From NCBI GenBank assembly GCA_014860585.1, contig JACZJL010000023.1, positions 1 to 64,000 of the forward strand: DNA of 64,000 nt, read 5' to 3'. The notes beneath the pieces were generated by a model. It saw only the letters and a list, made by a program, of their open reading frames with translations. It made no database searches and was not told where the DNA came from. This document shows, one piece after another, positions 12,725 to 63,903 of this stretch (position 1 is its first letter; the number at the start of each line of letters is the position of its first letter). Origin of the DNA: Bacteroidales bacterium. GTDB taxonomy: Bacteria > Bacteroidota > Bacteroidia > Bacteroidales > 4484-276. The translations under genes and the position numbers were made by a program.

Positions 12725-12760
12725 GGCTTTTTATTAGTGCCAGAAAGAAAACCCCTGAAG

Positions 12761-12866
12761 TTGAAAATCAATGAGTGCCCCAACCCTCCCGAAGTCTCGG
12801 GATAAATTCCGGGAGCATTGATTTTCAACGATTTACTCCCTTTAGGGTGGGGTAATTAAATCGTTG
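12761..12866. repeat. compound inverted-repeat element downstream of arcB
   Basis: Nested inverted repeats fill this stretch. TTGAAAATCAATG (12761-12773) pairs with CATTGATTTTCAA (12816-12828); inside is the perfect hairpin TCCCGA-AGTC-TCGGGA (12788-12803); CAACGATTTA (12826-12835) pairs with TAAATCGTTG (12857-12866); and CCCCAACCCT (12780-12789 region) is nearly complementary to AGGGTGGGG (12844-12852). The whole looks like a non-coding extragenic repeat of a type frequent in Bacteroidota intergenic DNA (CCCCnnCCCT...AGGGnGGGG). Confidence 0.5.
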
Positions 12867-12920
12867 AAAAACAAATTTGTAAAGTTTTCTTGCTGGCAGT
12901 AATTAAAACTCTCTATTAAC

Positions 12921-12954
12921 AAAAAAGCCGCCCTAGAATCAGGAGCGGCTTTTT
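12921..12954. terminator. bidirectional intrinsic terminator
   Basis: AAAAAGCCGC (12922-12931) and GCGGCTTTTT (12945-12954) form a symmetric hairpin with A/T tracts on both sides. It lies between the convergent arcB and the FN3-like T9SS gene and can serve both. Confidence 0.8.
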
Positions 12955-12972
12955 ATATGTTATGCTATCAGG

Positions 12973-14460: not shown

Positions 14461-14493
14461 AGGATTATCTTTTTTCTTGTTACAGTAATTAAA

Positions 14494-17400: not shown

Positions 17401-17691
17401 CGGAGCATTATCCGGACCAACAAAAGACCAGTTCAGCCCAAGCGAGTTACCCGATTTCAACTGTCGCTTTTCGGCTTGCTCCCTTGCAAGAAGTACATCA
17501 TTTGAGTTGACTTCGCCGGTAATCTGGTTGCTCCTGATCTGATGAAGGTACTCCGCTGCATCGACTATTTCTAAATTGTCGCTCCTCTTTGAAGAAGGAT
17601 GATCTGAACCAACAAAGCCAGATGCAACAATGAGCCCGGTCAACCCAAGAATAAACGTTAATAAGCTCAATTGTAAAAGTTTACGTTTCAT
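14494..17691 (-). CDS. large T9SS-sorted BNR/sortilin-type beta-propeller protein
   Basis: A 1065-residue secreted protein. It has an N-terminal signal segment, then a region rich in BNR/VPS10-like repeats: GVTGGLWKTTNLGSTWSK near residue 95, GMFKSTDGDTFTLI, YNVYLSEDKGETWHVIF, and further partial copies with S/T-x-D-x-G-x-x-W cores. Such repeats build beta-propellers in glycosidases and Bacteroidota cell-surface proteins. The sialidase arginine triad is not recognisable, so enzymatic activity is not claimed. The last 75 residues are a Por sorting domain (IYPNPVH ... TAKMIVR). It is the first gene of a two-gene unit with the FN3-like protein. Confidence 0.88.
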   Translation of the reverse strand: MKRKLLQLSLLTFILGLTGLIVASGFVGSDHPSSKRSDNLEIVDAAEYLHQIRSNQITGEVNSNDVLLAREQAEKRQLKSGNSLGLNWSFVGPDNAPGRVRALIFDNKDQTAKTLITAGVTGGLWKTTNLGSTWSKINTANQNLYVTCMAQAADGTIYAGTGEYFCTEAETYIGGLVGQGMFKSTDGDTFTLITETTPTITADNDTVEWAYINKIAIDKNSGRVYAATNAGLWYSDNGNSGWMKANQYYHDTLTYEVALAIDSTVQCDSYEVVGNTIIMQNPQFNKAVVDTTNYQKTALAPERQIMEFGKINCSDVEVGNDGTVVATFGDMVHIATPGSNLVFTNKSGTPSNPKLITREDRDYTTTLIAVDTLGNSANRTVAFNQLTNYVPDPALGRPSPLANNPGRSQVAFAPSDPTGNIIYAVSTQAGFLYNVYLSEDKGETWHVIFPGGSTTLRPFNGSACYNNVFEVFPDNPYKVLLGGLTMWLGQRIEGTNGYFDWGLGPITAFLPAGHHVYAFQPGTVNKLAVATNRGISYGTVTTGSTDFNRINRTLSITQSYTIGIGGLKRKAVTGTQGDGTWFISGQGNTTENGEKIEASNGGFCEISKINPNAFVYSTSTGVIERSDDEGQNTSFNFNAPTSNLFMTPIALWEDFESENSRDSVTFKATTNYSEGEVIICRSANPGFGLDAGYPFTYTLEESLSEGDSLRIKDIIQSKLFIATHNTVYMTKDAVKFSKDTEWWQIALVAAANGAPTCIAYSKDANYLFIGTRTGTIMRISNLALAYDYERADIRSPYCIVSADIIQYPAFQGRFITSIAFDPNNDNNLIVTLGNYGNEDYVYRSTNALASPSTGINFMSITGDLPKMPVYSSIIEMNNSNIAIIGTELGVYTSSDIGNGAVSWVPDSEGVGIIPVFQIKQQTIFKDEFIIYSEDPTTPPLIYPRVDNWGTIYMATYGRGVFRDDSYEIVGINDPEMPVNANISTFSIYPNPVHTTATFTFDLISSSNVRITLYNLNGMIVKEFNAGTVSSGSFDVTLDCSDLPGGAYVARIDAGNEMLTAKMIVR

Positions 17692-17834
17692 GTTATGAAA
17701 ATTTGATTAGTATAATTTTTTATTTTTTAAATTCAACTCATCAGTAAAAAACGTGCCACTAAAATACTGCTTTTAATTAAACCTGCTGATTTTTGTTCCT
17801 TCTCGGTAGGTTCGATCTCAGCTATTTAACCAAA

Positions 17835-17842
17835 CAAAATTA
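17835..17842 (-). promoter_or_regulatory. candidate -7 box of the T9SS operon
   Basis: On the minus strand 17842-17835 reads TAATTTTG, a perfect -7 match, giving a leader of roughly 135 nt. No -33 TTG is found at normal spacing, which together with the upstream direct repeat may mean activator dependence (inference). Confidence 0.35.
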
Positions 17843-18166
17843 AAACTCTGATTCAGACAGCTAAATGAAAATCAGTTTAAGGCTAATCGAAATCAGTTTA
17901 CGGTGCACTGTTTCAGCATAAAAACACGCTTTAAAAACTGAATAATAGCTGAAAAAATCGATGAACAAAATTGAAAAAAAAACTCGTACCACAAACACTT
18001 TTAACTTAATATAAATTGATTTTAAATAGCAGTACATGAAAATCATGAGTTGGTGTATTCCGTTCGAGCTCCTAAATACAACAAACTGTTTGGTTTATAG
18101 ACATTCAATGACTTATTTTCAATTTTTCCCTATGTAATCATTTGAAATTTGAATCCTTGCACAATT

Positions 18167-18200
18167 TTTGGTAATCAATCCCTTTTAAGTACTACTTTTG
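18167..18200 (+). promoter_or_regulatory. promoter of the papain-fold gene
   Basis: TTTG at 18167-18170 and TACTTTTG at 18193-18200 are separated by 22 nt. The start codon at 18256 leaves a leader of about 50 nt. Confidence 0.5.
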
Positions 18201-18255
18201 CAATTGATATTAAAATCTCAGGCGAATTCATTAAAAATCACAATCAAATAACCGT

Positions 18256-19395
18256 ATGAAAAACAAATTGAAAGTTTTACTCCTGGCCGTTGCTTTAATC
18301 GGCATTTCCAATGTTGCTATTTGTCAACAAAAGTATTACGACCTTCAGACAATCAAACAAGTGAAAACAGCACCCGCCAAAGATCTTCAACGCCCGGGAT
18401 CTTGCTGGAGTAATGCCGGCACTGCATTGATTGAGGCAGAATGGATAAAAAACGGAAGAACAGAAATTGATCTTTCGGAGATGACTTTTATCCGGAATGC
18501 TTACGAATTGAAAGCCTTTGCTTACCTGAATTCAAAGGGAGCTACCAGGTTGGATGAAAGATTATTGGCCTCCGATGTTTTCCCTTTAATGGTTGAATAT
18601 GGTATGGCTCCGGAAGAAATGTTTATGAAAACCGTTGACAAACCGAGGGATGCCAGCTCTGGTGAAATGGACGCTATTTTACGTGGTACGATGCAGATGG
18701 TAATGGAAAAAGAAGGCGGCAATTTCACCGAAAGATGGCAAAGCACTTTTAATGCAGCCCTTTCACGCTACCTTGGCGAAACCCGTATTGCATTTAATTA
18801 CAACAATACGGAGTACACTCCAAAATCCTTTGCCGAAACTTCCGGTATTAATGCTACCGATTATATTGTTTTAACCTCCGACTCAAGAAACACTCCAGAT
18901 AGCAAAATTGAACTTCCTGCAAGAAATAACTGGAACAAAACACAGGCCTACAACGTTTCAGCTGATAACCTGCAAAGCACCATTCGTAACGCCGTAAACT
19001 CGGGTTACACAGTAATTTGGTACGGTAATCTCGCCGAAGAAATGATTTTTCCTGAAGAAATGGTTGCTATTGTACCTGCCGGAAAAATTGCAGACTTAAC
19101 CAAACCCAAAGAAGGGGTCGAAACAACTTACGAACCTCTCGCCGAAAAAGCAGTATCACCCGCCGACCGTCAAGCTAACTTTGAAGCCTCAGTTGGAAAA
19201 GAGCTTGATTACCTGATGATTTTTGGAACAAGTAAGGATAAAAATGGGAATGAGTATGTGATGGCAAAGAAAGTTTGCGAAGCAGGGAACAAAACAATTC
19301 ATCTTTCCCCTTCTTTCGTCAAACTGAACACTGGTTATGTATTACTGAACAAAAAAGGGCTGCCTGGAGATTTAAAATCGAAACTTAGCCTTTAA
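18256..19395 (+). CDS. degenerate C1B (bleomycin hydrolase/PepC-like) peptidase homologue
   Basis: The 379-residue product has a signal peptide (cleavage near residue 23, ICQ-QKYY) and matches Bacteroidota C1 family aminopeptidase C proteins throughout: QRPGSCWSNAG with the nucleophile-position Cys50, DLSEM at 72-76, the YTPKSFAE segment at 187-194, YTVIWYGNL near 251 and a PGDLKSKLSL ending. However the histidine loop, normally DHGMLITG, reads ELDYLMIFG (about 316-324), and the KNSWG asparagine loop reads AKKVCEAG (about 337-344). Catalytic His and Asn are therefore replaced, by Asp/Tyr and Lys. The Cys and fold remain, so it may be a non-peptidase binding or inhibitory protein of the periplasm or surface. 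Confidence 0.8.
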   Translation: MKNKLKVLLLAVALIGISNVAICQQKYYDLQTIKQVKTAPAKDLQRPGSCWSNAGTALIEAEWIKNGRTEIDLSEMTFIRNAYELKAFAYLNSKGATRLDERLLASDVFPLMVEYGMAPEEMFMKTVDKPRDASSGEMDAILRGTMQMVMEKEGGNFTERWQSTFNAALSRYLGETRIAFNYNNTEYTPKSFAETSGINATDYIVLTSDSRNTPDSKIELPARNNWNKTQAYNVSADNLQSTIRNAVNSGYTVIWYGNLAEEMIFPEEMVAIVPAGKIADLTKPKEGVETTYEPLAEKAVSPADRQANFEASVGKELDYLMIFGTSKDKNGNEYVMAKKVCEAGNKTIHLSPSFVKLNTGYVLLNKKGLPGDLKSKLSL

Positions 19396-19402
19396 ATTTA
19401 TT

Positions 19403-19431
19403 AAGCCGTTCATTTGCGAGCGGCTTTTTTT
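19403..19431. terminator. intrinsic terminator between convergent genes
   Basis: AAGCCG (19403-19408) pairs with CGGCTT (19421-19426), followed by a T run to 19431. It terminates the papain-fold gene and overlaps the last codons/stop of batE on the other strand. Confidence 0.7.
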
Positions 19432-20182
19432 ATATCCTTCTAAAATCACTCTCCCTGATCCAGCCCTTACTTCCATCAGGTATCCGGATTTCAAACCACT
19501 CCCCCACCTGGTTCGTGATTTGCACTTTGATGCCTTCGTGAATTACAAAAATATCGGTGCTATTATCTCTTGGAGAGCTTTTAACCGTGACTGTCGGTGT
19601 AAAAACGATGGCCTCCGCCTGTTTCCTAAATTGAATGTAGCGTTGGTTTGCCAGGGTAAATGAGCCGGCAAACACGACAATCAGCACAATTCCCATCCAA
19701 AAACCAAATTTCCTAAGCCAAATAACCCTCGAAAGGAGGAAGATAAGAATCATCAGCAGTATGAATAAAAAACAAATCACACTGATAGTTGCCCATTGAT
19801 CGAGAGAGCGACTATTCACGAGCAATTTCCACCATGTAAAAATAAAAAATTCGGGCAGTGGCTCAATTTTGTCAACAATACGGCTATTGGCTAATTCAAG
19901 ATTAAAGAGAATATCAGGATCGTATGGGGTTATTTTTTTGGCTCTTTCAAAGTTAAGAATTGCCATGGGAAGGTTATTGACTTTGAAGTAAGCATTTCCC
20001 AGGTTAAAGTAAAGTGCTGATGATTCAAAACCGCTATTCAAAATCGTTTCGTAAGTTTCGATGGCAGGAATAAAATCGCCTTCGTTATAAAATTTGTTCG
20101 CCTGTTCCATAAGAATAAGCTTGTCGTCTGCCTTCGCGTTAAAGGACACCAAAAGGAAAATCAATATCAACAGATGTTTCAT
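19430..20182 (-). CDS. batE: BatE: TPR and SH3-domain membrane protein
   Basis: From ATG 20182 the product is 250 residues (an upstream in-frame TTG at 20191 is less likely). It has a signal peptide, two to three TPR units (ALYFNLGNAYFKVNNLPMAI and neighbours, about residues 20-95), two transmembrane helices (about 125-150 and 160-180) and a C-terminal bacterial SH3 domain (VTVKSSPRDNSTDIFV ... GSKGWIRESDF). This is the BatE architecture of the Bacteroides aerotolerance operon. It is the last gene of the operon, 12 nt after batD. Confidence 0.85.
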   Translation of the reverse strand: MKHLLILIFLLVSFNAKADDKLILMEQANKFYNEGDFIPAIETYETILNSGFESSALYFNLGNAYFKVNNLPMAILNFERAKKITPYDPDILFNLELANSRIVDKIEPLPEFFIFTWWKLLVNSRSLDQWATISVICFLFILLMILIFLLSRVIWLRKFGFWMGIVLIVVFAGSFTLANQRYIQFRKQAEAIVFTPTVTVKSSPRDNSTDIFVIHEGIKVQITNQVGEWFEIRIPDGSKGWIRESDFRRI

Positions 20183-50123: not shown

Positions 50124-50594
50124 GTGAGGAAATTTCCCATCTTCTTTCTTTTACCTTTATTGATGACCATCGCCCTCTCGTGCGACCGAAACCGATTTTA
50201 CGACCGTTCAGTCAGCATCCCCGGCAATGGCTGGCACAAAGACTCTACAGCACTTTTTAATGTTGATGTAAAAGATACTGTTGGGCTATACAGGGTCTTG
50301 ATCAATTTACGTAATAACAATGATTATTTGTACAACAACTTTTACCTGTTTCTTAATTCTACTCTGCCAAACGGAGATTTAGCCAGAGATACCATTGAAT
50401 TAATCCTTGCTGACCGCACCGGAAAATGGCTGGGGAGAGGGTTTGGCAGAATTAAGGACAACCAGGTAGAAGTTCGCTATGGTTTAAGGTTTCCTCAAAA
50501 AGGAAATTATACTTTTGAAATTGAACAGGCAATGCGAGATACCATCCTAGCAGGGATTGTTAACGTTGGGATAAGGATTGAGAAAAGAGATTAG
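50124..50594 (+). CDS. gldH: gliding motility lipoprotein GldH
   Basis: A 156-residue lipoprotein with lipobox ALSC (Cys20) and the GldH features: DRNRFYDRSVSIPGNGWHKD, NLRNNNDYLYNNFYLF, DTIELILADRTGKWLGRG (quoted in part). Start is GTG at 50124, since the next Met (residue 14) lies in the signal peptide. GldH is needed for gliding in Flavobacterium and also occurs in non-gliding Bacteroidota; here it agrees with the T9SS cargo proteins. It precedes the PBP gene, a common arrangement. Confidence 0.88.
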   Translation: MRKFPIFFLLPLLMTIALSCDRNRFYDRSVSIPGNGWHKDSTALFNVDVKDTVGLYRVLINLRNNNDYLYNNFYLFLNSTLPNGDLARDTIELILADRTGKWLGRGFGRIKDNQVEVRYGLRFPQKGNYTFEIEQAMRDTILAGIVNVGIRIEKRD

Positions 50595-53471: not shown

Positions 53472-54332
53472 CTAATAAGCGTCGAAGTCTATGCTCATAA
53501 ATTTAAAATGACTGGCATCAGGTATCCTGTTTTTGCCGGTCAAATCTTTGAAAATCAAATTTAATGGCGAGGGTTTAAGGTGATCAGGGAAATTAAAAAA
53601 CAACTTCCCCTGCCAGTTCAGTTGATCATCAAGTCCCATCCAGATGTTAGCCGGGTTAATTCCCCGGCGGGAAGGTAGTGATAGCATTTCAGGGAACGAC
53701 GATAATGGGAAAATACCGATTACTGCCCTGATTCCATATTTTCCGGTTGGAGCAAATACTATAAAATGGGTATTTGTCTTTTTAATTTCATATTTCAACT
53801 TCGGATTGGCCAACCGCCATTTCAGCGAATCCTTATCCCAGTGCCGGGAATAGTCAGCAGCCAAAGTTTTTCCAATATTGGGGGCGCCAATTCCAAATTT
53901 TACATCGAGTGGGCAGATCAGGCTGAACCCGAGATTTTTGAGGAAACCAGGCGTGCTGTTGGCATTGGCAACACCGATTACAAATTCATATCCGAGTTCC
54001 AATCCGCGCTCATAGGTTTTATCAGCCAGGATCGTAAAAAGCTTTTTGCCCCTGTGATTGGCATGTGTGGCTGTATTTAGGGAAAGGAGACCCCTGGTTT
54101 TTTTTCCTTCGAAATCAGCAACCAATGGTTGGGTTACATAATGGGCGGCCAACACCTCTCCCATCCAGGCATTGAATCCGACTGCCTTACCTGTTGGGTT
54201 CTGGTTGTATTCCCAATCAATAAAGGACGGGGAAAGCCCGGCTGTAGGGCCAAACACAGAAGTCAGCAAATCTGAGGTTTCGCGGATTCCTTTTTCGGAA
54301 AGATCTATGGTCTCAAAGCGGTATTCACTCAT
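53472..54332 (-). CDS. GNAT-family N-acetyltransferase
   Basis: The 286-residue protein has a GNAT fold in its N-terminal half: LLSLNTATHANHRGKKLFTIL (acetyl-CoA loop, about 83-103, with RGKKLF replacing the R/QxxGxG/A consensus), followed by FVIGVANANSTPGFLKNLGF. The C-terminal half is a second alpha/beta region of unknown role. Similar proteins occur in glycan loci of Bacteroidota. Acetyl acceptor unknown. It converges with the PBP gene, 4 nt apart. Confidence 0.75.
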   Translation of the reverse strand: MSEYRFETIDLSEKGIRETSDLLTSVFGPTAGLSPSFIDWEYNQNPTGKAVGFNAWMGEVLAAHYVTQPLVADFEGKKTRGLLSLNTATHANHRGKKLFTILADKTYERGLELGYEFVIGVANANSTPGFLKNLGFSLICPLDVKFGIGAPNIGKTLAADYSRHWDKDSLKWRLANPKLKYEIKKTNTHFIVFAPTGKYGIRAVIGIFPLSSFPEMLSLPSRRGINPANIWMGLDDQLNWQGKLFFNFPDHLKPSPLNLIFKDLTGKNRIPDASHFKFMSIDFDAY

Positions 54333-54551: not shown

Positions 54552-55934
54552 ATGAACTTCAGAAAGTTTGGCATTTCAGGTTTTGCAATCGTTCTGGTTG
54601 CCATCATCGTGTTATCAATAGATAATAATCTGGGTCGCTGGAAAGCCGAGCAGGGGATAATCGTGCATGATGTCTATCCTTTTTATGCTTATTTACCTGC
54701 AACTTTTATTTACCATGACCTTGGGCTGGATTTTGTTGATGGAGGCACGCACAACGGTCAGTTTATTTTATGGCCGAAAATCACTCCCGAAGGCAAAAAG
54801 GTCATTACGGCATCAATGGGAATGTCAGTACTCTATTTCCCGTTCTTTTTGCCGGCCCATGTTTATGCAGTATGCAGCAGCTATCCCCCTGACGGTTACA
54901 GCGCTCCTTATAAGGTTGCCCTGATGCTTTCATCCGCCTTTTTCCTGATTTTAGGATTGATTTACCTGCGGAAACTTCTTCGAAAATACTTTTCCGACCT
55001 TGTAACCGCCATTGTCCTTTTTATCATACCGATAGCTACCAACATACTGTGGTACACCGTGGTAGAGTCGGCTATGTCGCATGTGTACAATTTTGCCCTG
55101 ATTTCAATATTTCTCTATCACACCGATCGCTGGCACGAAGAGATTACACTGAAGCGCAGCATTATCATCGGGTTGCTGGCCGGGTTAATCGCTCTGATCA
55201 GACCGACCAACATCCTGGTGCTGATCCTGTTTTTCTTTTGGGATGTCAAATCCTGGAACGAGGCCGGAAAGCGGGTTATCTTTTTTCTGCATAAGTGGCG
55301 TCACGTGTTGCTGATGATCATTGCTTTTGTATTGGTTTGGATTCCCCAGTTTCTATACTGGAAAATGCAAACCGGGCAATATCTTTACTATTCTTATCCC
55401 GACGACCAGGGATTCTTTTTTGGAAATCCCCAAATCTGGAATAGCCTGTTTTCGTGGCGGAAAGGGTGGTTACTTTACACACCGGTGATGATTTTTGCGG
55501 TTGCCGGAATAGCGGCTATGCGCAAAAACCATCCAAAGCTTTTCTTACCTGTACTAATTTATACACTGGTTACCATTTATGTAATTTCGTCCTGGTGGGA
55601 CTGGTGGTACGGCGGAGGTTTCGGGCTGAGAGCCTACATTGACATGTACGGTGTGTTTGCACTCCCTATGGCTGCTTCATTAACCTGGATTATCAACAGA
55701 AAAATGGTGATCAAATATGCGCTGATCTTAATTTTTCTGCTGCTGACCGCCAGAAGCCTTTTTCATCATGTTCAATATCATTACGGAGCCATCCATTGGT
55801 TTAGCATGACACGGGAGGCCTATTTGGATTCATTTTTCAGGATCAGGCCTTCAGACCGGTTTCCGGAATTAATCAAAAACCCGGATTATACCCTGGCGCG
55901 AAAAGGGATTTATAAATATGAAGGCGAAGAGTAA
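54552..55934 (+). CDS. polytopic membrane protein, probable GT-C type glycosyltransferase
   Basis: From ATG 54552 the product is 460 residues with about ten transmembrane helices. The first periplasmic loop has VHDVYPFYAYLPATFIYHD, with acidic residues in the position of the GT-C catalytic loop; another loop has SSWWDWWYGGGFGLRAYIDMYG, a pattern shared by Bacteroidota proteins of the dolichyl-phosphate-mannose mannosyltransferase type. Lipid-linked sugar would be the donor. It is the first of a same-strand run of glycan genes reaching the window end. Substrates are unknown. Confidence 0.65.
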   Translation: MNFRKFGISGFAIVLVAIIVLSIDNNLGRWKAEQGIIVHDVYPFYAYLPATFIYHDLGLDFVDGGTHNGQFILWPKITPEGKKVITASMGMSVLYFPFFLPAHVYAVCSSYPPDGYSAPYKVALMLSSAFFLILGLIYLRKLLRKYFSDLVTAIVLFIIPIATNILWYTVVESAMSHVYNFALISIFLYHTDRWHEEITLKRSIIIGLLAGLIALIRPTNILVLILFFFWDVKSWNEAGKRVIFFLHKWRHVLLMIIAFVLVWIPQFLYWKMQTGQYLYYSYPDDQGFFFGNPQIWNSLFSWRKGWLLYTPVMIFAVAGIAAMRKNHPKLFLPVLIYTLVTIYVISSWWDWWYGGGFGLRAYIDMYGVFALPMAASLTWIINRKMVIKYALILIFLLLTARSLFHHVQYHYGAIHWFSMTREAYLDSFFRIRPSDRFPELIKNPDYTLARKGIYKYEGEE

Positions 55935-55972: not shown

Positions 55973-56917
55973 ATGTTTAAAAATAAGAAAACAGCCGTAG
56001 TAATTCCAACCTACAAAGCCGCTGCACACCTGGAAGATGTAATCCGGGGGCTTCCGGAGATGATTGATCACATCATTGTAGTGGATGATAAATGTCCGCA
56101 AAACACGGGAAAGATTGCCGTCGAGATGCAAAAAACTGACCCCCGGCTTGTCATACTTTTTCATGAAGCGAACCAGGGTGTGGGTGGAGCAGTCGTCACG
56201 GGTTACAAAAAAGCGTTGGAACTGGGATGCGAAATCGTGGTAAAGATGGACAGCGACGACCAGATGGACCCGGTCTATCTGCCCGGCCTGATCAGCCCGA
56301 TAGTAGAAGGCCAGGCCGGGTACACCAAAGGTAATCGCTTCGTGGATTTCAAAGCCCTGCGTGCAATGCCGGGTTTCAGGCTGTTTGGTAACAGTGTCCT
56401 CTCTTTCCTCGTGAAAGCATGTTCGGGTTACTGGAACCTGATGGATCCAACCAATGGATACACTGCAATCAGCAGCAGTTCGCTACAAAAAATCAACCTT
56501 GATAAACTTGCTAAACGGTTCTTCTTCGAAACCGATATGCTGATCCGGTTAAATATTCAAAATACAGTGATAAAAGATGTGCCAATTCCCGCCAGGTACG
56601 GCAGCGAACAGAGCACCCTGAGTATCCGCAATACGATGGTCAGATTTCCTTTTCTCCTCATAAAAGGCCTGACCAAACGCTTCATCCTGAAATACCTGAT
56701 TTACGACTTCAATATGGCTTCCGTTTACATTCTTACCGGGATGCCCATGCTGCTTTGGGGGATTTTTTATGGTCTTTTCAAATGGATTGAAAATACGATC
56801 AATCATGTAGCCACTCCAACCGGAACTATCATGCTGTCGGTTTTACCGCTGATCCTTGGAACCCAGTTTGTTATTGCTGCTATTAACATAGATATCAATT
56901 CTACACCAAAAAACTGA
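55973..56917 (+). CDS. GT2 glycosyltransferase, polyprenyl-phosphate type (ArnC/DPM1-like)
   Basis: From ATG 55973 the product is 314 residues (an upstream TTG at 55943 is unlikely). GT-A domain: TAVVIPTYKAAAHLEDVI, IIVVDDKCPQNTG, and the metal-binding DSDDQMDP. Two C-terminal transmembrane helices (about 255-275 and 285-305) fit polyprenyl-phosphate glycosyltransferases, which load a sugar onto undecaprenyl phosphate at the inner face of the membrane. It begins a tight cluster: the next gene starts 2 nt after its stop. Confidence 0.85.
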   Translation: MFKNKKTAVVIPTYKAAAHLEDVIRGLPEMIDHIIVVDDKCPQNTGKIAVEMQKTDPRLVILFHEANQGVGGAVVTGYKKALELGCEIVVKMDSDDQMDPVYLPGLISPIVEGQAGYTKGNRFVDFKALRAMPGFRLFGNSVLSFLVKACSGYWNLMDPTNGYTAISSSSLQKINLDKLAKRFFFETDMLIRLNIQNTVIKDVPIPARYGSEQSTLSIRNTMVRFPFLLIKGLTKRFILKYLIYDFNMASVYILTGMPMLLWGIFYGLFKWIENTINHVATPTGTIMLSVLPLILGTQFVIAAINIDINSTPKN

Positions 56918-56919
56918 TT

Positions 56920-57288
56920 ATGATCAAAGTAGTCGTCCTCTCTGTTCTCACTACGTTGCTGATCACCTCGGGACAGGTGCTCTGGAAAGTTGGAATACAA
57001 AAAGCCGGCGGGTTTTATTTGCCGGAGCAAAGCATTTTTGAAAATGTGTTCCGCATCCTGCTCAACGGTTGGGTATTTTCGGGCTTTGTAGTTTATGCAT
57101 TGGCCACCGGATTTTTTATGTGGCTCATCTCCAAGTTCGATATCAGCCTGATTATCCCGATCACAAGCGTTGCCTTTATTTATTCATTACTGGCAGGCTA
57201 TTTTATTTTTCACGAGCAAATCAGCCTGGTCAGGGTGTTTGGAGTGCTGCTGATCATTGCCGGAGTATTTTTTGTGGTAAAAAATTAA
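56920..57288 (+). CDS. SMR/EamA-type small membrane protein, possible lipid-sugar flippase (ArnE/F-like)
   Basis: A 122-residue protein with four transmembrane helices: VVVLSVLTTLLITSGQVLWKVG, the FSGFVVYALATGFFMWLISK segment, IIPITSVAFIYSLLAGYFIF and VFGVLLIIAGVFFVV. This is the size and layout of the DMT/SMR class that includes ArnE/ArnF, which flip undecaprenyl-phosphate-Ara4N. The SMR multidrug glutamate in helix 1 is absent, which favours a flippase over a drug pump. It is embedded between a GT2 and a deacetylase gene with gaps of 2 and 9 nt. Confidence 0.75.
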   Translation: MIKVVVLSVLTTLLITSGQVLWKVGIQKAGGFYLPEQSIFENVFRILLNGWVFSGFVVYALATGFFMWLISKFDISLIIPITSVAFIYSLLAGYFIFHEQISLVRVFGVLLIIAGVFFVVKN

Positions 57289-57297
57289 TCAGGAAAA

Positions 57298-58158
57298 ATG
57301 GAACCCAGCACGCCGAATAATTTTGTCACTTTTGATATCGAGGAATGGTACTCAGCCAACTTCACCAGCCTGGATTTAAACCTGATTGATGACAACACTA
57401 ACCATCTGGAAAAAAATGTTGACCGGCTGTTGGATATTTGCACTGCACATTCGATCAAAGCCACCCATTTTATTGTTGGCGACATTGCAGTGAACAAGCC
57501 GCACGTTATAAAGAAAATACACAGCGCCGGGCATGAAGTAGCTTCGCACAGCCATCGCCACGAAATGATTTACATGATGACTCCTGAACTATTCCGGGAA
57601 GACCTGCGGATTTCGTGCGACCGTCTCGAGCAGATCACCGGAGAAAAGGTGTATGGCTTTAGGGCGCCCTCGTGGTCGGTGAAAGAGGAGACTTTGCCAT
57701 GGTTTTACGAAATTCTTCACGGGCAGGGAATCATCTATTCATCATCGGTATTCCCGGGAAAAACATTTTTATACGGCATTCCCGGTTTTCCGGAAACCAT
57801 TCACCAGCCTGTGATTGACGGAGTTAAACAGCAGGTCTGGGAAATCCCGCAAACGCTGTTTTCATTTTTAAGTAAAAAATTCGGATTCAGCGGCGGGTTC
57901 TATATGCGGGCGCTGCCGGGATGGTTTATCACGCGAATGATTAAAGCCAAAAACAATGAGGGTAAAAGTGTCTTTCTTTACCTCCATCCCCGCGAAATTG
58001 ATCCCCAATCGCCCAGGTTGAAACTCCCGTTGTTGGAACGCTTCATTCATTATTACGGGGTAAATGGCTGCGAGGAAAAATTCCAAAAACTCATAGGAAA
58101 ATTTAATGGCTCTTTTATTAGAATGGATGATTTTATAAAATCTTTAAACCCGGCATGA
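57298..58158 (+). CDS. NodB-fold polysaccharide deacetylase
   Basis: A 286-residue enzyme with VTFDIEEWY near residue 10 (catalytic/metal Asp13), the zinc motif SHSHRHE (His84, His88), the FRAPSWS motif (121-127), and LYLHPREIDP near the end. The FDIEEWY start and the tail resemble the exopolysaccharide-associated DUF3473 deacetylases. No signal peptide, so it should act on a cytoplasmic or inner-face substrate such as a lipid-linked N-acyl sugar, parallel to ArnD. Its last four bases overlap the start of the next gene. Confidence 0.87.
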   Translation: MEPSTPNNFVTFDIEEWYSANFTSLDLNLIDDNTNHLEKNVDRLLDICTAHSIKATHFIVGDIAVNKPHVIKKIHSAGHEVASHSHRHEMIYMMTPELFREDLRISCDRLEQITGEKVYGFRAPSWSVKEETLPWFYEILHGQGIIYSSSVFPGKTFLYGIPGFPETIHQPVIDGVKQQVWEIPQTLFSFLSKKFGFSGGFYMRALPGWFITRMIKAKNNEGKSVFLYLHPREIDPQSPRLKLPLLERFIHYYGVNGCEEKFQKLIGKFNGSFIRMDDFIKSLNPA

Positions 58159-59615
58159 AGATCATGAAACATCAATGGCTGAAAGGATATTACCACGAGC
58201 TGATATTACTTATTGTGATCATCGCTTTGATTGTCATAAAATTGCCCCATCTCTATCTTCCCTATTATGGCGATGAAGGATTTGCATTCGGACCGGCTGT
58301 TCACCTGATGTACCAGAATGGTCCAACCATACTTCCCGGTGGACTCGAACCCGACTATTCCTATGGCCACCCGCTGTTGTTTCATTTTCTTGTTGCCTCC
58401 TGGATGAAAATTTTTGGTGAAAGCATTCTCGTGGCGAAGTCCTTTGCCCTCCTTGTATCAATACTGCTGCTTATCGCCATTTTTTTTACAGGAAAAACAT
58501 TCTTTAATAAAGACGCCGGATTGCTGGCTGCCATCCTGTTGTTTTTTCAACCCATTTTTCTTGCACAGTCATCATTTGTACTGCTTGAAGCTTTTTTGGC
58601 ATTGCTCGGCTTGCTCACGATTCTATTCTTTTTCCAAAAAAAATGGTTGCTCTATGCCCTGACAGCATCGGCACTGGTGATGACCAAAGAATCAGGACTT
58701 TTTCTTGTATTTGCTCTTTGTATCTGGCAATTGATGGATGTTTTTCTGGAAAAAGAAAATCACTATTCTGCCCGTAAAATGATTTATTCCTACCTGATTA
58801 TCCTGGTTCCGGCGATGGTGTTTGGCCTTTTTCTCATTCAGCAAAAGCTCACCTGGGGCTGGTTCTTATTTCCGGGCCGCATGAATGACATGCAAATGAC
58901 CTATGACATCATTTCCCGCAACCTCGGACACATCCGGAAAATCATCTTTTTTATCCATGGCCGCAACTGGCTGGTGATTGGATTGCTGGTTTCACTGGTG
59001 GGTTATTATTTTATCCCGGGAAAGCGTTTTACCGGGCATCAATGGAAATTGATCTGGTTCATAACACTTTTTATTGGGATTTTCTGGTTCATGAGTTCTC
59101 TCAATTTTATTTCGAACCGCTACTTCCTGATTGTGATCACCATACTGGTTTTATTAATCGCTTCCATCACCGTTCAGGCTTTTCAAGTTAAAAAATGGCT
59201 GCTTTACCCGGTGATGATAGCGCTGGTTGTTTCTCAATCCATTTTTGCATTTCGGCATTACTCAACCGGAGACGACAATCTGGGATTTACCGACGTGGCC
59301 AAAGTCCACCGGGAGGCCATCCATTTTATGGAAGAGCATAACATGCAAGATGCCTCTGTGTATGCACATTTTCTGATGCTTATCAACCTGCAACATCCAT
59401 TGGCAGGCTACCTGAGCGATGGCATAGTGTTTACCAGAATTAAAGGTTTATACACCGACAGCGTGGATTATGCGGTTATTTCGAATGTCGAGCTGAGCCG
59501 GGAACTTGATAGCATTCGCGGACTTCCTCACCTTGAGTTAATGAAGCGGGTTGAAATAGGACTAGCCTGGACAGAAATTTACAGAAACACATTAAAAATC
59601 AACAGCCAGGAATAA
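58155..59615 (+). CDS. ArnT/GT39-like GT-C glycosyltransferase
   Basis: A 486-residue membrane protein with about 11 transmembrane helices and the GT-C catalytic loop LPYYGDEGFAFGPA (Asp40-Glu41), as in ArnT and protein O-mannosyltransferases. HPLLFHFLVASWMKIFGES and FQPIFLAQSSF follow as in ArnT family members. It would move a sugar from a polyprenyl phosphate onto lipid A, glycan or protein on the periplasmic face. It overlaps the deacetylase by ATGA; a second ATG at 58164 is also possible. Confidence 0.8.
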   Translation: MKIMKHQWLKGYYHELILLIVIIALIVIKLPHLYLPYYGDEGFAFGPAVHLMYQNGPTILPGGLEPDYSYGHPLLFHFLVASWMKIFGESILVAKSFALLVSILLLIAIFFTGKTFFNKDAGLLAAILLFFQPIFLAQSSFVLLEAFLALLGLLTILFFFQKKWLLYALTASALVMTKESGLFLVFALCIWQLMDVFLEKENHYSARKMIYSYLIILVPAMVFGLFLIQQKLTWGWFLFPGRMNDMQMTYDIISRNLGHIRKIIFFIHGRNWLVIGLLVSLVGYYFIPGKRFTGHQWKLIWFITLFIGIFWFMSSLNFISNRYFLIVITILVLLIASITVQAFQVKKWLLYPVMIALVVSQSIFAFRHYSTGDDNLGFTDVAKVHREAIHFMEEHNMQDASVYAHFLMLINLQHPLAGYLSDGIVFTRIKGLYTDSVDYAVISNVELSRELDSIRGLPHLELMKRVEIGLAWTEIYRNTLKINSQE

Positions 59616-59656: not shown

Positions 59657-61093
59657 ATGGAAACCAAAGAAAAAAATATCGCTTTTCTCAAATCAGCACT
59701 TACCACCGAAAGCACAATGATGCCTTCAGAAGGTTTCATTGCCTGGATGAAAGCAAAAAACGAGCAGGTGCATGTGAAGATCAATCAAATTCCATTTTCG
59801 GAGATGAGGCTCTGGCACTTTGATGGAAACACCGGCAACCTGGTTCATCAGAGCGGGAAGTTTTTTTCGATCGAGGGAATCAGGGTGAAAACAAACTGGG
59901 GAAAGGTTTCCGAGTGGGAACAACCGATCATCAATCAGCCGGAAGTTGGATTTCTGGGAATCATCACAAAAAAGTTCGATGGGATCCTGTATTTTTTGAT
60001 GCAGGCGAAGATTGAACCGGGCAATCTGAATGTTGTGCAACTCTCCCCCACCCTGCAGGCCACGCGCAGCAACTATTCGCAGGTGCATAAAGGAAAGCGG
60101 CCGCTCTATCTCGAATATTTTAACGGCGAAAAACCGGTAAAAATCCTCCTCGACCAGCTTCAGTCAGAGCAAGGCGCCCGCTTTTTGAGAAAGCGCAACC
60201 GCAACATCATTGTCGAAATTGCAGAAAACGAAAAAATTGAAGTTTTTGAAAATTTCTGCTGGCTCACTTTAGGGCAGATCAAGTCGTTTTTACAGTACGA
60301 CAACCTGGTGAATATGGACACCCGGACGGTGATTTCAGGAATCCCATTTGGAGAGTACCCTCCCGATGTGCTCGATTTTTATGAAACCCTGAAATTTACC
60401 AGCGAGCAAAAGACCCGAGAAAACGGGCTGCTGATCTCGATGCTCGACGACAAAAGACATCTCCACGATGTGGATGAGATCATTTCGTGGATGACCCGCC
60501 AAAAAGCATTTTATGATCTCGAAGTGGAAAGAATCCCGCTGAAATCGGTAAAAGATTGGGTAATCTCCGGAGATGAGATTTACCATCAAAACCGGAAGTA
60601 CTTTTCAGTGATTGGCGTACATGTTGAAATTGGCAACCGCGAAGTCCAGGCCTGGGATCAGCCGCTGATCAAAGCAGCGCAGGAAGGGATCATTGCATTT
60701 ATTGTAAAAAAAATCAACGGCATTTACCATTTCCTGGTGCAGGCCAAGCTCGAAGCGGGCAATTTCGACATCATCGAACTGGCGCCCACCGTGCAATGTT
60801 TAACCGGGAATTACCGCAAAGGTCAGAACGAATACGACGTCATGTTCCTCGATGAGGCGCTCAATGCCAAACCGGAGCAAATCTGGTTTTCAAGTTATCA
60901 AAGTGAGGAGGGCGGACGATTTTTCAAAGAACAGAACAAAAATATGATCATCGAAGCCGGTGATAATTTCCCGGTAGAAGTACCTGAAAATTACATCTGG
61001 ATGACGCTCAACCAGTTGAAGGTATTCATTAAATACAACAATTACTTGAACATAGCAGCAAGGAGTTTGATCGCAGCGGTGAAATTTATCTAA
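59657..61093 (+). CDS. NDP-hexose 2,3-dehydratase
   Basis: The 478-residue protein is two tandem homologous halves (about 1-230 and 231-478). Each half carries MRLWHFDGNTGNLVHQSGKFFSIEG or a version of it, a WEQP/WDQP-IxxxxxxGxxxxI strand, FLMQAKIEPGN / FLVQAKLEAGN, L(S/A)PTLQATxSNY or PTVQCLTGNY, and an SEQGARF/SEEGGRF turn. This is the EvaA/TylX3/SpnO/OleV family, which removes water from dTDP-4-keto-6-deoxyglucose to start 2-deoxysugar formation. The family is best known from actinomycete antibiotic clusters. The Gfo/Idh/MocA oxidoreductase that follows is the usual next enzyme. Confidence 0.9.
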   Translation: METKEKNIAFLKSALTTESTMMPSEGFIAWMKAKNEQVHVKINQIPFSEMRLWHFDGNTGNLVHQSGKFFSIEGIRVKTNWGKVSEWEQPIINQPEVGFLGIITKKFDGILYFLMQAKIEPGNLNVVQLSPTLQATRSNYSQVHKGKRPLYLEYFNGEKPVKILLDQLQSEQGARFLRKRNRNIIVEIAENEKIEVFENFCWLTLGQIKSFLQYDNLVNMDTRTVISGIPFGEYPPDVLDFYETLKFTSEQKTRENGLLISMLDDKRHLHDVDEIISWMTRQKAFYDLEVERIPLKSVKDWVISGDEIYHQNRKYFSVIGVHVEIGNREVQAWDQPLIKAAQEGIIAFIVKKINGIYHFLVQAKLEAGNFDIIELAPTVQCLTGNYRKGQNEYDVMFLDEALNAKPEQIWFSSYQSEEGGRFFKEQNKNMIIEAGDNFPVEVPENYIWMTLNQLKVFIKYNNYLNIAARSLIAAVKFI

Positions 61094-61126
61094 ACGACTA
61101 GGAGTTGCCGAATTAAATAATTAAGC

Positions 61127-62116
61127 ATGAAGAAATTGAACATAGCAATCATGGGATGCGCGGGAATTGCGCAGCGCTCAATGATCCCGGCTATCAAAGC
61201 AGTTCCGGAGTGGAATTTGGTTGCGGTGGCCAGCCGTTCAAAGGCGAAGGCTGAGAGATTTGCCGGTCAGTTTGACTGTGAAGCGGTGGTTGGTTATGAA
61301 AATCTCCTTAACCGCAGCGACATTGACGCCATTTACATGCCGCTGCCCACCGGCCTGCATCATGAGTGGATCACAAAATGCCTGAAGGCGGAAAAACATG
61401 TTTTAGCAGAAAAATCCATTGCTTACGATTATGCTTCGGCAGTGGAAATGGTGAACACCGCCAAAGCAAATTCGCTGGTACTGATGGAGGATTTCATGTT
61501 TCAATACCACAGCCAGCATCAGTTTGTGTTTGATTTATTGCGAAAAGGGGAGATGGGTGAAATTCGCGTTTTCAGGGCAAATTTTGCTTTTCCCCCGATG
61601 CCCAAAACCAACTTCAGGTATGACGATCATATCGGAGGCGGCGCACTGCTCGATGCTGCGGGCTACACGGTGCGGGCAGTACATTTTATGATGGGCGATA
61701 AGTTCGTGGTAAAGGCGGCCAATCTTTACATCGACCCCGAAACCGGAACCAATATTTATGGCGGCGCTTTCCTGGATAATGGCAAAGGAGTGAGCGCCCA
61801 GATTGCTTTTGGGATGGATCACTATTACCAATGCAACTACGAAATCTGGGGGAGCAAAGGAAAAATTACCGCCGACCGCGCTTTTACCCCAAAACCCGAC
61901 TTCAGCCCTATGATCATTTTCGAAAAACAGGGAGAACGCAAAGAACACCAGATGCCGCCCGACAATCATTTTATCGGCTCCATCAAAGAGTTTTACCGGG
62001 CCATTGCAACCGGCGATGTTGAAAAACATCACCACGACGTGCTGCTGCAAAGCAAAACGCTCGATGATATCAGAAGACTATCGGGGAATCAGAACGAAAA
62101 AATTAGTTTGGAATAA
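61127..62116 (+). CDS. Gfo/Idh/MocA-family oxidoreductase, probable NDP-sugar 3-ketoreductase
   Basis: The 329-residue enzyme has an N-terminal Rossmann motif (IMGCAGIAQRS, residues 7-17), the MPLPTGLHHEW loop, LAEKSIAYDY at the position of the family EKP motif (Pro replaced by Ser), and the GGGALLDAAGYTVRA segment near 180. TylC1, SpnN and OleW, which reduce the 3-keto group left by 2,3-dehydratases, belong to this family. Adjacency (33 nt) to the dehydratase supports that role; direct evidence of substrate is lacking. Confidence 0.82.
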   Translation: MKKLNIAIMGCAGIAQRSMIPAIKAVPEWNLVAVASRSKAKAERFAGQFDCEAVVGYENLLNRSDIDAIYMPLPTGLHHEWITKCLKAEKHVLAEKSIAYDYASAVEMVNTAKANSLVLMEDFMFQYHSQHQFVFDLLRKGEMGEIRVFRANFAFPPMPKTNFRYDDHIGGGALLDAAGYTVRAVHFMMGDKFVVKAANLYIDPETGTNIYGGAFLDNGKGVSAQIAFGMDHYYQCNYEIWGSKGKITADRAFTPKPDFSPMIIFEKQGERKEHQMPPDNHFIGSIKEFYRAIATGDVEKHHHDVLLQSKTLDDIRRLSGNQNEKISLE

Positions 62117-62120
62117 CCAT

Positions 62121-62143
62121 CGTTCCGAGCGCAGCGAGGAATC
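62121..62143. repeat. dispersed-repeat fragment
   Basis: CGTTCCGAGCGCAGCGAGGA followed by ATC is close to a sequence (TTCCGAGCGnAGCGAGGAAT) found many times in intergenic DNA of Bacteroidota genomes. It is itself partly palindromic (TTCC...GGAA). Only this single copy is in the window. Confidence 0.4.
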
Positions 62144-62191
62144 CGTTATTTGTCCGTTGACTACTTTTTTTAAATTCAAATAAACGTAACA

Positions 62192-62323
62192 ATGTTTAAA
62201 CAGGAATACGAAACCCTAATTTTTCAATTCAGAGGTTTGTCTACAGGATATATGTCTGAACTTACTAAGAATGAGAAAGATGAACTTGTCGCAAATTGTG
62301 ACCGGTTGGCTGCGCTATTATAA
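62192..62323 (+). CDS. possible small protein, unknown function
   Basis: An ATG-initiated frame of 43 codons: MFKQEYETLIFQFRGLSTGY then MSELTKNEKDELVANCDRL and a short hydrophobic end. The composition is protein-like (balanced, helical, acidic-basic pattern) and unlike random AT-rich DNA. No homologue is recognised and no promoter is clear. It may be a small orphan gene or the remnant of a longer one. Confidence 0.35.
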   Translation: MFKQEYETLIFQFRGLSTGYMSELTKNEKDELVANCDRLAALL

Positions 62324-62390
62324 AAGGTTTAAGGTGTCAACCTAACTACTTTCCCCAACTCACTGATTTAATTGAAGTTGATCAAGTATT

Positions 62391-62490
62391 CTCTGTGAAA
62401 CTCTGTGCCTTCTTCGTGTTACTCTGTGCTAAAGCTCTAAATATTGTTGCACAACGGTTTACAAAGCAAACACAAAGTTTTACAAAGTTT
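62391..62490. repeat. two opposed 10-nt-period degenerate arrays
   Basis: ctctgtgaaa, ctctgtgcct, tcttcgtgtt, actctgtgct run from 62391 to 62430 with a 10-nt period. From 62461 to 62490, acaaagcaaa, cacaaagttt, tacaaagttt repeat the reverse-complement theme (actttgtg) with the same period. The two arrays can pair imperfectly into a long hairpin. Confidence 0.4.
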
Positions 62491-62543
62491 GGTCACTATC
62501 ATCATAAACATATTCCTACTTTCCATTGTCAGTAAAATAAAAG

Positions 62544-62551
62544 TAAATTTG
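62544..62551 (+). promoter_or_regulatory. candidate -7 box of the MNT nucleotidyltransferase gene
   Basis: TAAATTTG at 62544-62551 fits TAnnTTTG, with TTG at 62526-62528 (15-nt gap, short). The start codon lies 23-24 nt downstream. Confidence 0.4.
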
Positions 62552-62574
62552 CATTGAATTTTAGTTTTTAAGTG

Positions 62575-62895
62575 ATGATAAACCAGCAGAAAATTGATGA
62601 AGTAGTTTCGAGGATTACAAAAAGGTTTGATCCTGAGAAAATAATTTTATTCGGTTCCCTTGCCAGTCAAAATCAGACTTCGGACAGTGACCTGGATTTA
62701 CTGATCGTTAAAGAAACAAAACTTCCTGTTCATCAGCGAAGTAACGAAATTCGCTCTCACTTGTTAGGATTAAAGATACCGATGGATATTCTCGTTTACA
62801 CCAGCGATGAGTTTGATAAAGAAAAAAACGTCAGGTTTTCTTTCCTAAATGGAGCACTAAAAAACTCAATAGTACTTTATGAGCGAACAAACTGA
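62575..62895 (+). CDS. MNT-type nucleotidyltransferase (HEPN/MNT antitoxin family)
   Basis: The 106-residue protein from ATG 62575 (GTG 62572 also in frame) is a minimal nucleotidyltransferase: LFGSLASQN (Gly27-Ser28) and SDSDLDLLIV with catalytic Asp39 and Asp41, then a third strand with MDILVY supplying the third Asp. MNT proteins act as antitoxins by adenylylating HEPN RNase toxins. The expected HEPN partner overlaps its 3' end but is only 18 codons long here. The length and active site look intact. Confidence 0.85.
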   Translation: MINQQKIDEVVSRITKRFDPEKIILFGSLASQNQTSDSDLDLLIVKETKLPVHQRSNEIRSHLLGLKIPMDILVYTSDEFDKEKNVRFSFLNGALKNSIVLYERTN

Positions 62896-62935
62896 TCTGA
62901 TTAATGCCTGGGTTAAAATCATCAACAAACCCTGA
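62879..62935 (+). pseudogene. truncated HEPN-domain gene (remnant of HEPN/MNT pair)
   Basis: ATG at 62879 lies inside the last codons of the MNT gene, the normal overlap for this pair. The frame reads MSEQTDLINAWVKIINKP then stops. HEPN proteins of this family typically begin with the same M-x-x-x-x-DLI-x-AW-x-K-K pattern and continue for some 120 residues with an RxxxxxH RNase motif. Here the rest is missing and the next glycosyltransferase gene starts 14 nt later, so a deletion is likely. Confidence 0.65.
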
Positions 62936-62949
62936 ATTTAATTTTCAAG

Positions 62950-63903
62950 ATGCAATCCAATCCACACATTTCTATTGTCAGTCCGGTTTACGGCGCCTCA
63001 GGATTGCTTGAGGAGCTGGTCAGGCGGATCAAGGAGTCGGTTAGTAAAATAACTGAGAATTACGAAATCATTCTTGTTGAAGACCACGGCCCGGACGATT
63101 CGTGGCAAAAGATCAAAGCGATTTGTGAAAAAGACAAACGGGTAACCGGCATCCGCCACAGCCGCAATTTCGGTCAGCAGTATGCCCTCAACTGCGGTCT
63201 GGATCATGCCCGCGGAGAATGGGTGGTCACGCTCGACTGCGATTTACAAGACCGTCCGGAAGAGATCATCAACCTTTACAACAAAGCGCAGGAAGGATAC
63301 GACATCGTGCTGGCAAGCCGCCAGAATCGCAGGGATGATTTTTTAAAAAAACTGTTTTCTAAAATGTTTTACCGTCTCCTCAGCTACCTCACCGACACCT
63401 ACCAGGATGCTTCGCTGGCCAACTTTTCGCTCTACCACCGCAATGTGGTCGAGGCGCTCAAAAGCATGAACGATTACTCGCGATACTACCCGACGATGAT
63501 TCACTGGGTAGGATTTCGGCTGGCAAAACTCGAGATACAGCACGCCAGCCGCGAAGATGGAAAAAAATCATCTTACAGTTTCAAAAAACGACTTGCTCTG
63601 GCCTTTGACACCATCGTTTCGTTTTCAAACAAACCCTTGCGCCTGACCGTAAAACTGGGCATCCTCATTCTTGTCATTGCCACCCTGCTCGCCATTGCAT
63701 TGGTGATCCGCTATTTACTGGTGGATACTTCAGTAACCGGCTGGACAAGTACGTTTTTATCACTCTGGTTTTTATCCGGTATAATCATCACCATTTTGGG
63801 AATGATCGGTATTTATGTCGGTAAAATCTTTGAAACCGTGAAAAGACGGCCATCCTACATTGTCGGGGAAAAGCTTAATTATCAAGATCAAACTGCTGAG
63901 TAA
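62950..63903 (+). CDS. GT2 polyprenyl-phosphate glycosyltransferase (GtrB-like)
   Basis: A 317-residue enzyme: GT-A start ISIVSPVYGASGLLEELV, VEDHGPDDSW, RHSRNFGQQYALNCGLDHA, and the metal motif DCDLQDRPEE. The C-terminus has two transmembrane helices (about 232-257 and 268-292) and a KRRPSYIV tail, the GtrB/YfdH plan. It should load a sugar onto undecaprenyl phosphate. It shows no close similarity to the GT2 at 55973 beyond the fold. Its stop overlaps the start of the next gene (TAATG). Confidence 0.88.
   Translation: MQSNPHISIVSPVYGASGLLEELVRRIKESVSKITENYEIILVEDHGPDDSWQKIKAICEKDKRVTGIRHSRNFGQQYALNCGLDHARGEWVVTLDCDLQDRPEEIINLYNKAQEGYDIVLASRQNRRDDFLKKLFSKMFYRLLSYLTDTYQDASLANFSLYHRNVVEALKSMNDYSRYYPTMIHWVGFRLAKLEIQHASREDGKKSSYSFKKRLALAFDTIVSFSNKPLRLTVKLGILILVIATLLAIALVIRYLLVDTSVTGWTSTFLSLWFLSGIIITILGMIGIYVGKIFETVKRRPSYIVGEKLNYQDQTAE

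Follow-up and report, generated by a model that had tools for sequence, protein, structure and literature searches.

What does a run of sugar-transfer genes in a Bacteroidota glycan locus make, and which of its genes belong together? The locus lies in a 64,000-nucleotide (nt) stretch of a Bacteroidales genome (assembly GCA_014860585.1, contig JACZJL010000023.1), which was analysed as a whole and is called the window here. The initial annotation had singled out four genes at positions 55973–59615, for a GT2 glycosyltransferase, a small EamA/SMR-type membrane protein, a deacetylase and a GT-C enzyme, as a self-contained Arn/Flm-like module for a lipid-linked amino sugar. It overlooked a GNAT gene (53472–54332, minus strand) and another GT-C gene (54552–55934), both directly upstream. 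As judged from gene content across genomes, the conserved set consists of the GNAT, this upstream GT-C, the GT2, the small EamA/SMR protein and the deacetylase. We propose, with moderate confidence, that these genes form a three-component glycosylation system (GT2, small flippase, GT-C) combined with a pair of enzymes that would exchange the N-acyl group of the sugar, as proposed for VimE and VimA.

A recurring five-gene set

The set is laid out in the window as follows.

53472..54332, minus strand: GNAT-fold N-acyltransferase, a tandem GNAT by its model (PF13527), the proposed re-acylating enzyme
54552..55934, plus strand: GT-C glycosyltransferase of the recurring set (open reading frame listed from TTG 54447, with an ATG at 54552)
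55973..56917, plus strand: GT2 polyprenyl-phosphate sugar synthase, AglJ/PpgS/DPMS-like (PF00535), with two C-terminal hydrophobic stretches
56920..57288, plus strand: small EamA/SMR-type membrane protein, the proposed flippase (PF00892), 2 nt after the GT2 gene
57298..58158, plus strand: DUF3473/TIGR03006-type N-deacetylase without a signal peptide (PF01522 and PF11959, the latter DUF3473), after a 9-nt gap

The plus-strand coordinates of the four genes first described, their gaps and the 4-nt overlap that joins the last of them to the deacetylase gene are as originally given. The two C-terminal transmembrane helices ascribed to the GT2 correspond to hydrophobic stretches judged from the sequence.

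Relatives of the deacetylase were sought in 84,980 species genomes. The scan yielded 550 confirmed relatives, and the loci of the best 80 (L098–L177) were searched with nine proteins of the locus. (Handles beginning with L denote loci of relatives, G relative genomes, with G000 the window's own, and C contigs.) Three relatives, at L098, L099 and L106, are at least 66% identical to the window's deacetylase. In L098 and L099, both from other Bacteroidota, all five genes recur in the order GNAT (minus), SMR, deacetylase, GT-C, GT2, compared with GNAT (minus), GT-C, GT2, SMR, deacetylase in the window. Identity to the window's proteins is 68–77% for GT2, SMR protein and deacetylase, 63–64% for the GNAT and 45–49% for the GT-C (45, 49 and 69% in L098, L099 and L106). 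The third locus, L106, corresponds to contig C65 (3,574 bases) of G568, a genome from the same genus, and carries the GT-C, GT2, SMR and deacetylase genes, the last cut by the contig end. G568 holds all five genes, split over C210 and C65. On C210 the GNAT gene lies 51 nt short of the contig end; before it comes a PBP gene that shares 80% identity with its window counterpart, and aminotransferase and GldH-like genes were recognized by eye as in the window. This arrangement is consistent with a break between contigs at the GNAT–GT-C junction. The window's GldH lipoprotein gene lies at 50124–50594 (PF14109), and it is its counterpart that was seen by eye in the G568 neighbourhood.

The copy at L098 is an islet between cysS, encoding cysteinyl-tRNA synthetase, and an RNase R-type (RNB-domain) gene, and no sugar-nucleotide gene, aminotransferase or Wbp-type gene lies within it. 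Its position between housekeeping genes makes it likely that GT2, flippase-like protein, deacetylase and GT-C constitute a self-contained route to a lipid-linked (amino) sugar. To this extent the recurring set and the islet bear out the original idea of a self-contained system; its free amino sugar end product does not fare as well. Across the four genomes compared, the GNAT co-occurs with the deacetylase: both are present in G000, G568 and G511, and both are missing from G466. The GNAT gene adjoins the set in L098 and L099 and the deacetylase gene in L100. This co-occurrence suggests that the amine is re-capped rather than left free.

The full set is rare. Over the 80 loci, profiles matched the SMR protein in five and this GT2 type in seven. 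A survey of the phylum found the deacetylase in 36 of 395 genomes; the remaining eight locus proteins had no match at 1e-3 in 29 deacetylase loci taken with 1.5-kb flanks, which were too short. Base composition gives no break between the set (GC 0.435–0.459) and its surroundings (PBP gene 0.446, second GT-C 0.429, window 0.422).

At family level the GT2 is predicted to be a polyprenyl-phosphate-sugar synthase, every NCBIfam model scoring below its cut-off. TIGR04182 AglJ gave 77 bits (full-length alignment) and the polyprenyl-phosphate-GalNAc synthase PpgS 34 bits (partial), both far below cut-off, and ArnC gave 21.2 bits (cut-off 529). Its best relative in the PDB is dolichol-phosphate-mannose synthase, 5mlz. 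The small protein passes the PF00892 cut-off (29.8 against 28.2 bits) and is weakly ArnE-like, a distant kinship: it scores 26 bits against ArnF and 25.6 against ArnE in NCBIfam (cut-offs 99 and 92), with hhalign probabilities of 3.7 and 87.5, respectively. This detectable kinship speaks for a genuine family member rather than an unrelated EamA fragment. Its family assignment as SMR/EamA holds, and the four transmembrane helices once assigned to it are a number that rests on size and ArnE kinship, the crude hydropathy script used for such counts giving too many in this protein. The upstream GT-C has an LA3751-type NCBIfam match (2e-08) far below cut-off.

Parts of the set also occur elsewhere. 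A plasmid of Pseudomonas asturiensis carries a GT2 that shares 45% identity with that of the window and adjoins EamA and GT39 proteins, with no deacetylase listed nearby; beside two other plasmid relatives of the GT2 no small EamA gene is listed. In G165 a 45% GT2 relative is followed three genes on by a small EamA-like open reading frame. The window's GT2 type adjoins a deacetylase also in L112 and L188.

The deacetylase and its acyltransferase neighbours

The deacetylase matches DUF3473 with 106.9 bits (Pfam) and TIGR03006 with 215.8 bits, under the curated NCBIfam cut-off of 276.2; the window's genome has one TIGR03006 match. Its structure model is confident (AF2 pLDDT 94.8), and a Foldseek search with it is led by a mycobacterial deacetylase and Helicobacter HP0310, then Burkholderia and Bacillus proteins, with PuuE at rank 9 and ArnD at rank 10 (E 5e-10, TM scores 0.62/0.65). 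Comparison of the deacetylase and ArnD profiles finds the CE4 domain in common. The ArnD model NF011923, however, gives 17.6 bits against a cut-off of 382, and BLAST against Escherichia coli ArnD gives an E value of 0.03. The ArnD likeness that was first supposed is thus fair at the level of fold and wrong at the level of family.

Residues D13, E15, H84, H88, R122 and H230 are invariant among 59 aligned deacetylases. The first modelled strand spans residues 8–14 and contains the first catalytic motif, which leaves no room for a signal peptide, in agreement with the original description of a NodB-type deacetylase (PF01522) lacking one. A grouping with secreted exopolysaccharide deacetylases only had been named as a possible objection; it applies by half, the family being TIGR03006 but the signal peptide missing. 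The deacetylases of XrtA/PEP-CTERM systems belong to this same family, and their TIGR03019 partners stand, over cut-off, beside the relatives in L113 and L133. An assignment of the window's gene as an XrtA-system polysaccharide deacetylase was nonetheless rejected: it falls below the TIGR03006 cut-off, and the window holds no exosortase, the genome's two exosortases over cut-off lying outside it.

The GNAT matches PF13527 at 4.4e-06 (27.2 bits, cut-off 25). Its structure model (AF2 pLDDT 78.7) retrieves N-myristoyltransferases and Eis-like tandem GNATs in Foldseek.

Acyltransferase genes are common beside such deacetylases. Ten of the 15 best relatives (L098–L112) have a GNAT (L098–L101, L107, L112) or a FemAB-type protein (L108–L111) within 1 kb of the deacetylase; the other five are four Campylobacterota (L102–L105) and the cut locus L106. 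Among 74 scored loci, 38 have a partner within three genes of the deacetylase (formyltransferase in 14, GNAT in 12, FemAB in 12), although these counts (10/15 and 38/74) are partly circular because the profiles were seeded from deacetylase neighbours. No scored locus has two kinds of partner within that distance. Shuffling predicts 5.7 such overlaps and gave zero in 0.03% of trials, in a calculation that ignores kinship. An independent Pfam count points the same way: the gene next upstream of the deacetylase carries Formyl_trans_N in 12 of 71 cases and Acetyltransf_9 in 7 of 71, whereas five genes upstream each reaches at most 2 of 57 and neither is among the 25 most frequent families listed. 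Mapped onto the tree of deacetylases, the GNAT label takes seven changes, of which well-supported branches force five, and none of 500 shuffles clustered it as strongly. Thus, the pairing of GNAT and deacetylase arose or was lost several times. GNAT–deacetylase pairs of Dysgonomonas fall outside the supported clade of the window's deacetylase.

The neighbourhoods vary in other ways. In L101, L107 and L152, genes for KAS III and a short-chain reductase lie close to both the GNAT and the deacetylase gene (the L152 reductase was identified by eye), possibly for on-site synthesis of the acyl donor; these loci come from Omnitrophica, Deltaproteobacteria-labelled and Bacteroidales genomes. The Sulfuricurvum deacetylases of L102 and L103 have in their vicinity a gene for an aromatic amino acid lyase (by Pfam for L102) and one for a short-chain reductase, a neighbourhood that we take to resemble an aryl-polyene type cluster. 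In L109, L110 (Aminicenantes) and L111 (from a Paceibacterota-labelled genome), genes for a GT2, a DUF2304-type protein, in places an SMR protein, a FemAB-type protein and the deacetylase follow in a run, and the DUF2304 protein may be another flippase-type partner. Among the papers searched, none links DUF3473 with polysaccharide deacetylase, none brings together PEP-CTERM, exosortase, FemAB and deacetylase, and none treats type IX secretion along with a polysaccharide deacetylase, a formyltransferase and an acetyltransferase.

A proposed N-acyl exchange and its alternatives

Two known systems bear on how the set may work. In three-component systems (GtrA/GtrB/Gtr and pentofuranose types), a polyprenyl-phosphate-sugar synthase, a flippase and a GT-C add one sugar outside the cytoplasm (PMC11127046). 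The recurring set has the same components at family level, namely a synthase-type GT2, a small flippase-type protein and a GT-C, so the base system, lacking an acyl-exchange pair, is already known. The window adds a deacetylase and an acyltransferase, neither of which is mentioned by name in the main text of that report (PMC11127046). These two, in turn, recall the Vim proteins. On the sugar that links type IX cargo in Porphyromonas gingivalis and Tannerella forsythia, serine or glycine replaces an acetyl group; it has been proposed that VimE takes off the acetyl group and VimA attaches the amino acid; exchanging vimA exchanged the amino acid on the sugar, and vimA/vimE-like neighbours are reported in bacteria without type IX secretion (PMC7468200). 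The window and its relatives likewise encode a CE4 deacetylase together with a GNAT-type transferase, which by type resemble that pair, proposed to swap the N-acyl group of an amino sugar.

On this basis we propose the following scheme, in which the substrates, the sequence of reactions, the acyl donor and the acceptor are all inferred. At the cytoplasmic face, the GT2 would load undecaprenyl phosphate with a common N-acetyl-hexosamine supplied as its UDP derivative. The DUF3473 deacetylase would remove the acetyl group from the lipid-linked sugar, and the GNAT would cap the exposed amine with a different acyl (or aminoacyl) group. The EamA/SMR protein would then flip the product across the membrane, where the upstream GT-C would pass the sugar to an envelope acceptor, be it a glycan, lipid A or protein. 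If so, a testable five-gene unit replaces a misfiled Arn-like one. More broadly, many DUF3473 deacetylases may prepare sugars for re-acylation rather than for a free amine, which would allow chemistry to be predicted for glycan loci still unassigned and supply a candidate for type IX linker pathways outside Porphyromonas and Tannerella.

Several points weigh against this scheme. All function in it is predicted from sequence. The full five-gene set was seen in four genomes only, and GT2 relatives at 44–45% identity (G165, G346, G056) have no deacetylase in the stretches examined. The GNAT has no NCBIfam match at 0.01, TIGR03019 included, its structure model is moderate, and its gene is transcribed away from the rest of the set in the window, L098 and L099. 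In the neighbour counts, besides their partial circularity, 36 of the 74 loci have no such partner, including the four Campylobacterota of the window deacetylase's own clade; L151 has a GNAT adjoining the deacetylase and a FemAB four genes upstream, just beyond the three-gene limit; and Acetyltransf_1 occurs in only 4 of 71 adjoining genes, against 2 of 57 five genes upstream. Finally, the window runs on into a second GT-C, which makes the acceptor step ambiguous.

The proposal closest to the original annotation is that GT2, flippase, deacetylase and GT-C put a free, positively charged amino sugar on lipid A or another acceptor, the GNAT being a mere neighbour. Arn (ArnC/D/E/F/T), Lgm and FlmF2/NaxD/FlmK systems do combine the same component types, a lipid-linked amino sugar, a deacylase, a flippase and a GT-C transferase, and the fold neighbourhood of ArnD and the weak ArnE kinship of the small protein agree with such a function. 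In Bordetella, deletion of the lgm locus removes glucosamine from lipid A (PMC11895810). However, the window's GT2 and deacetylase belong to other NCBIfam families, every matching Arn model lies far below its cut-off, and the ArnC homolog here is a different gene, that at 62950 (187 bits against the same ArnC model, nearer than the GT2 though likewise below the cut-off of 529). On these scores, together with comparison to the E. coli Arn proteins, membership in the Arn/NaxD type was rejected. The added acyltransferase, which keeps company with the deacetylase in the genomes compared and adjoins it elsewhere, argues further against a free amine, and we regard this alternative as rather unlikely.

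A second alternative makes the set a factory for the type IX linking sugar: the acetyl group of an amino sugar on undecaprenyl phosphate would be swapped for an amino acid or another acyl group, and the GT-C would cap a surface glycan with the product, creating the acceptor on which PorU-type sortases anchor the C-termini of their cargo. More broadly, DUF3473 deacetylases would supply the constant part of an N-acyl-exchange unit, with a formyltransferase, a GNAT or a FemAB protein as the variable partner. Besides the VimE/VimA precedent (PMC7468200), the genome itself gives some encouragement. At least 150 type IX C-terminal domains are encoded (150 of 302 candidates were scored), along with two full-length PorU-type sortases over cut-off (1345 and 1262 bits), and besides its one TIGR03006 match it has no match at 0.001 to TIGR03019, the model that VimA is reported to match. 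Prevotella intermedia, moreover, lacks VimA and VimE and uses another linker, to which alanine is added by a route described as unknown (PMC11969387). A linking-sugar role in the window genome is therefore possible, but several facts tell against it as the function of the set. G466, of the same family, has neither deacetylase nor GNAT (its secretion system was not checked), the Dysgonomonas pairs belong to another clade, and deacetylase relatives spread over many phyla that are not known to have type IX secretion. The substrate described for the Vim pathway is a di-N-acetyl uronic acid that Wbp enzymes make and that is proposed to sit in a pyrophosphate-linked oligosaccharide (PMC13086638); by that description the window set differs in its monosaccharide-phosphate/GT-C route, and its islet copy has no Wbp-type gene. 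As a whole, this alternative is distinctly unlikely. A query with E. coli RecA, made because the Vim genes stand in the order recA-vimA-vimE, had no match in the loci examined. The two sortase genes of the window's genome stand side by side on contig C28 at 12345–19505 (L192, L193).

The genes could also be ordinary surface-glycan genes shuffled together, with the deacetylase serving a separate polysaccharide. Numerous sugar-nucleotide and glycosyltransferase families do occur among the Pfam neighbours of the deacetylases, and GT2, GT-C and deacetylase each occur apart. Against this, two further genomes carry all five genes in a different order and at a different site, in one case isolated, which renders chance assembly quite improbable.

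In the Arn system, the amine that ArnA formylates is deformylated by ArnD, and a protecting-group cycle of this style, in which the GNAT acetylates a nucleotide amino sugar and the deacetylase strips the group after lipid transfer, would suit the formyltransferases next upstream of 12 of 71 deacetylase relatives, but it is very improbable, given that the L098 set has no aminotransferase or sugar-nucleotide gene, which makes a ready N-acetyl sugar the simpler substrate, and that FemAB-type partners misfit a protecting role.

A more distant parallel to the exchange scheme is GpgSDF, which makes glucosaminyl-phosphatidylglycerol and groups a glycosyltransferase, a deacetylase and a predicted flippase in one predicted operon (PMC12713373). 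It differs in having a GT4-type enzyme that acts on phosphatidylglycerol, a COG3233 deacetylase and a YbhN-type flippase, in an operon without a GT-C (PMC12713373).

The second GT-C and the downstream block

Downstream of the deacetylase the window continues with a second run of genes.

58155..59615, plus strand: second GT-C (PMT_2; PF13231, PF02366), overlapping the deacetylase gene by 4 nt
59657-61093, plus strand: NDP-hexose 2,3-dehydratase, downstream block (PF03559, 1.2e-157)
61127-62116, plus strand: Gfo/Idh/MocA oxidoreductase, downstream block (PF01408)
62950..63903, plus strand: ArnC homolog of the locus, downstream block (33% identity over 302 amino acids to E. coli ArnC, 7e-56)

The GT-C at 58155 was counted as the fourth gene of the original module and called ArnT-like. 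It belongs to the PMT/GT-C superfamily but is not ArnT, BLAST against E. coli ArnT giving E values of 0.16 for it and 0.86 for the upstream GT-C. Nor does it co-occur with the other three genes: it had no match at 1e-3 in the examined stretches of L098 and L099 and none at 1e-5 in the draft genome G568; the GT-C that travels with the set is the upstream one. Among 247 genomes of the order, this GT-C was found in 20 (1e-5) and the deacetylase in 34 (1e-12); four genomes have both (the window's own, G414, G425 and G496), against 2.75 expected by chance, and on one contig only in the window's own. In G466 a GT-C of this type, a Gfo/Idh oxidoreductase, an ArnC-like protein and an epimerase follow in a row (47, 73, 75 and 62% identity), with no match there to the window's dehydratase. 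By conservation the second GT-C thus appears to go with the downstream block, despite its overlap with the deacetylase gene, which suggests that the two genes are transcribed together in the window genome. The four-gene unit, and with it the expected conservation of its order, was rejected, since its last gene follows another block and the proposed unit straddles the join of the two.

The absence of ArnA and ArnB holds for the nine locus proteins compared, none of which had a significant match to the E. coli sequences; the comparison did not extend to the contig-end epimerase or to the rest of the genome. The contig extends 1,893 bases past the window end, so the glycan locus is cut there. The downstream block (59657–63903, and likewise L038) comprises a 2,3-dehydratase with two domain copies, the Gfo/Idh oxidoreductase, the ArnC-type GT2 and an epimerase, a content that suggests the loading of undecaprenyl phosphate with a deoxysugar for the GT-C at 58155 to use. 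Within the block, at 62572–62895, lies a small MntA-like nucleotidyltransferase gene (match below cut-off) with a GC content of 0.36, lower than that of its neighbours.

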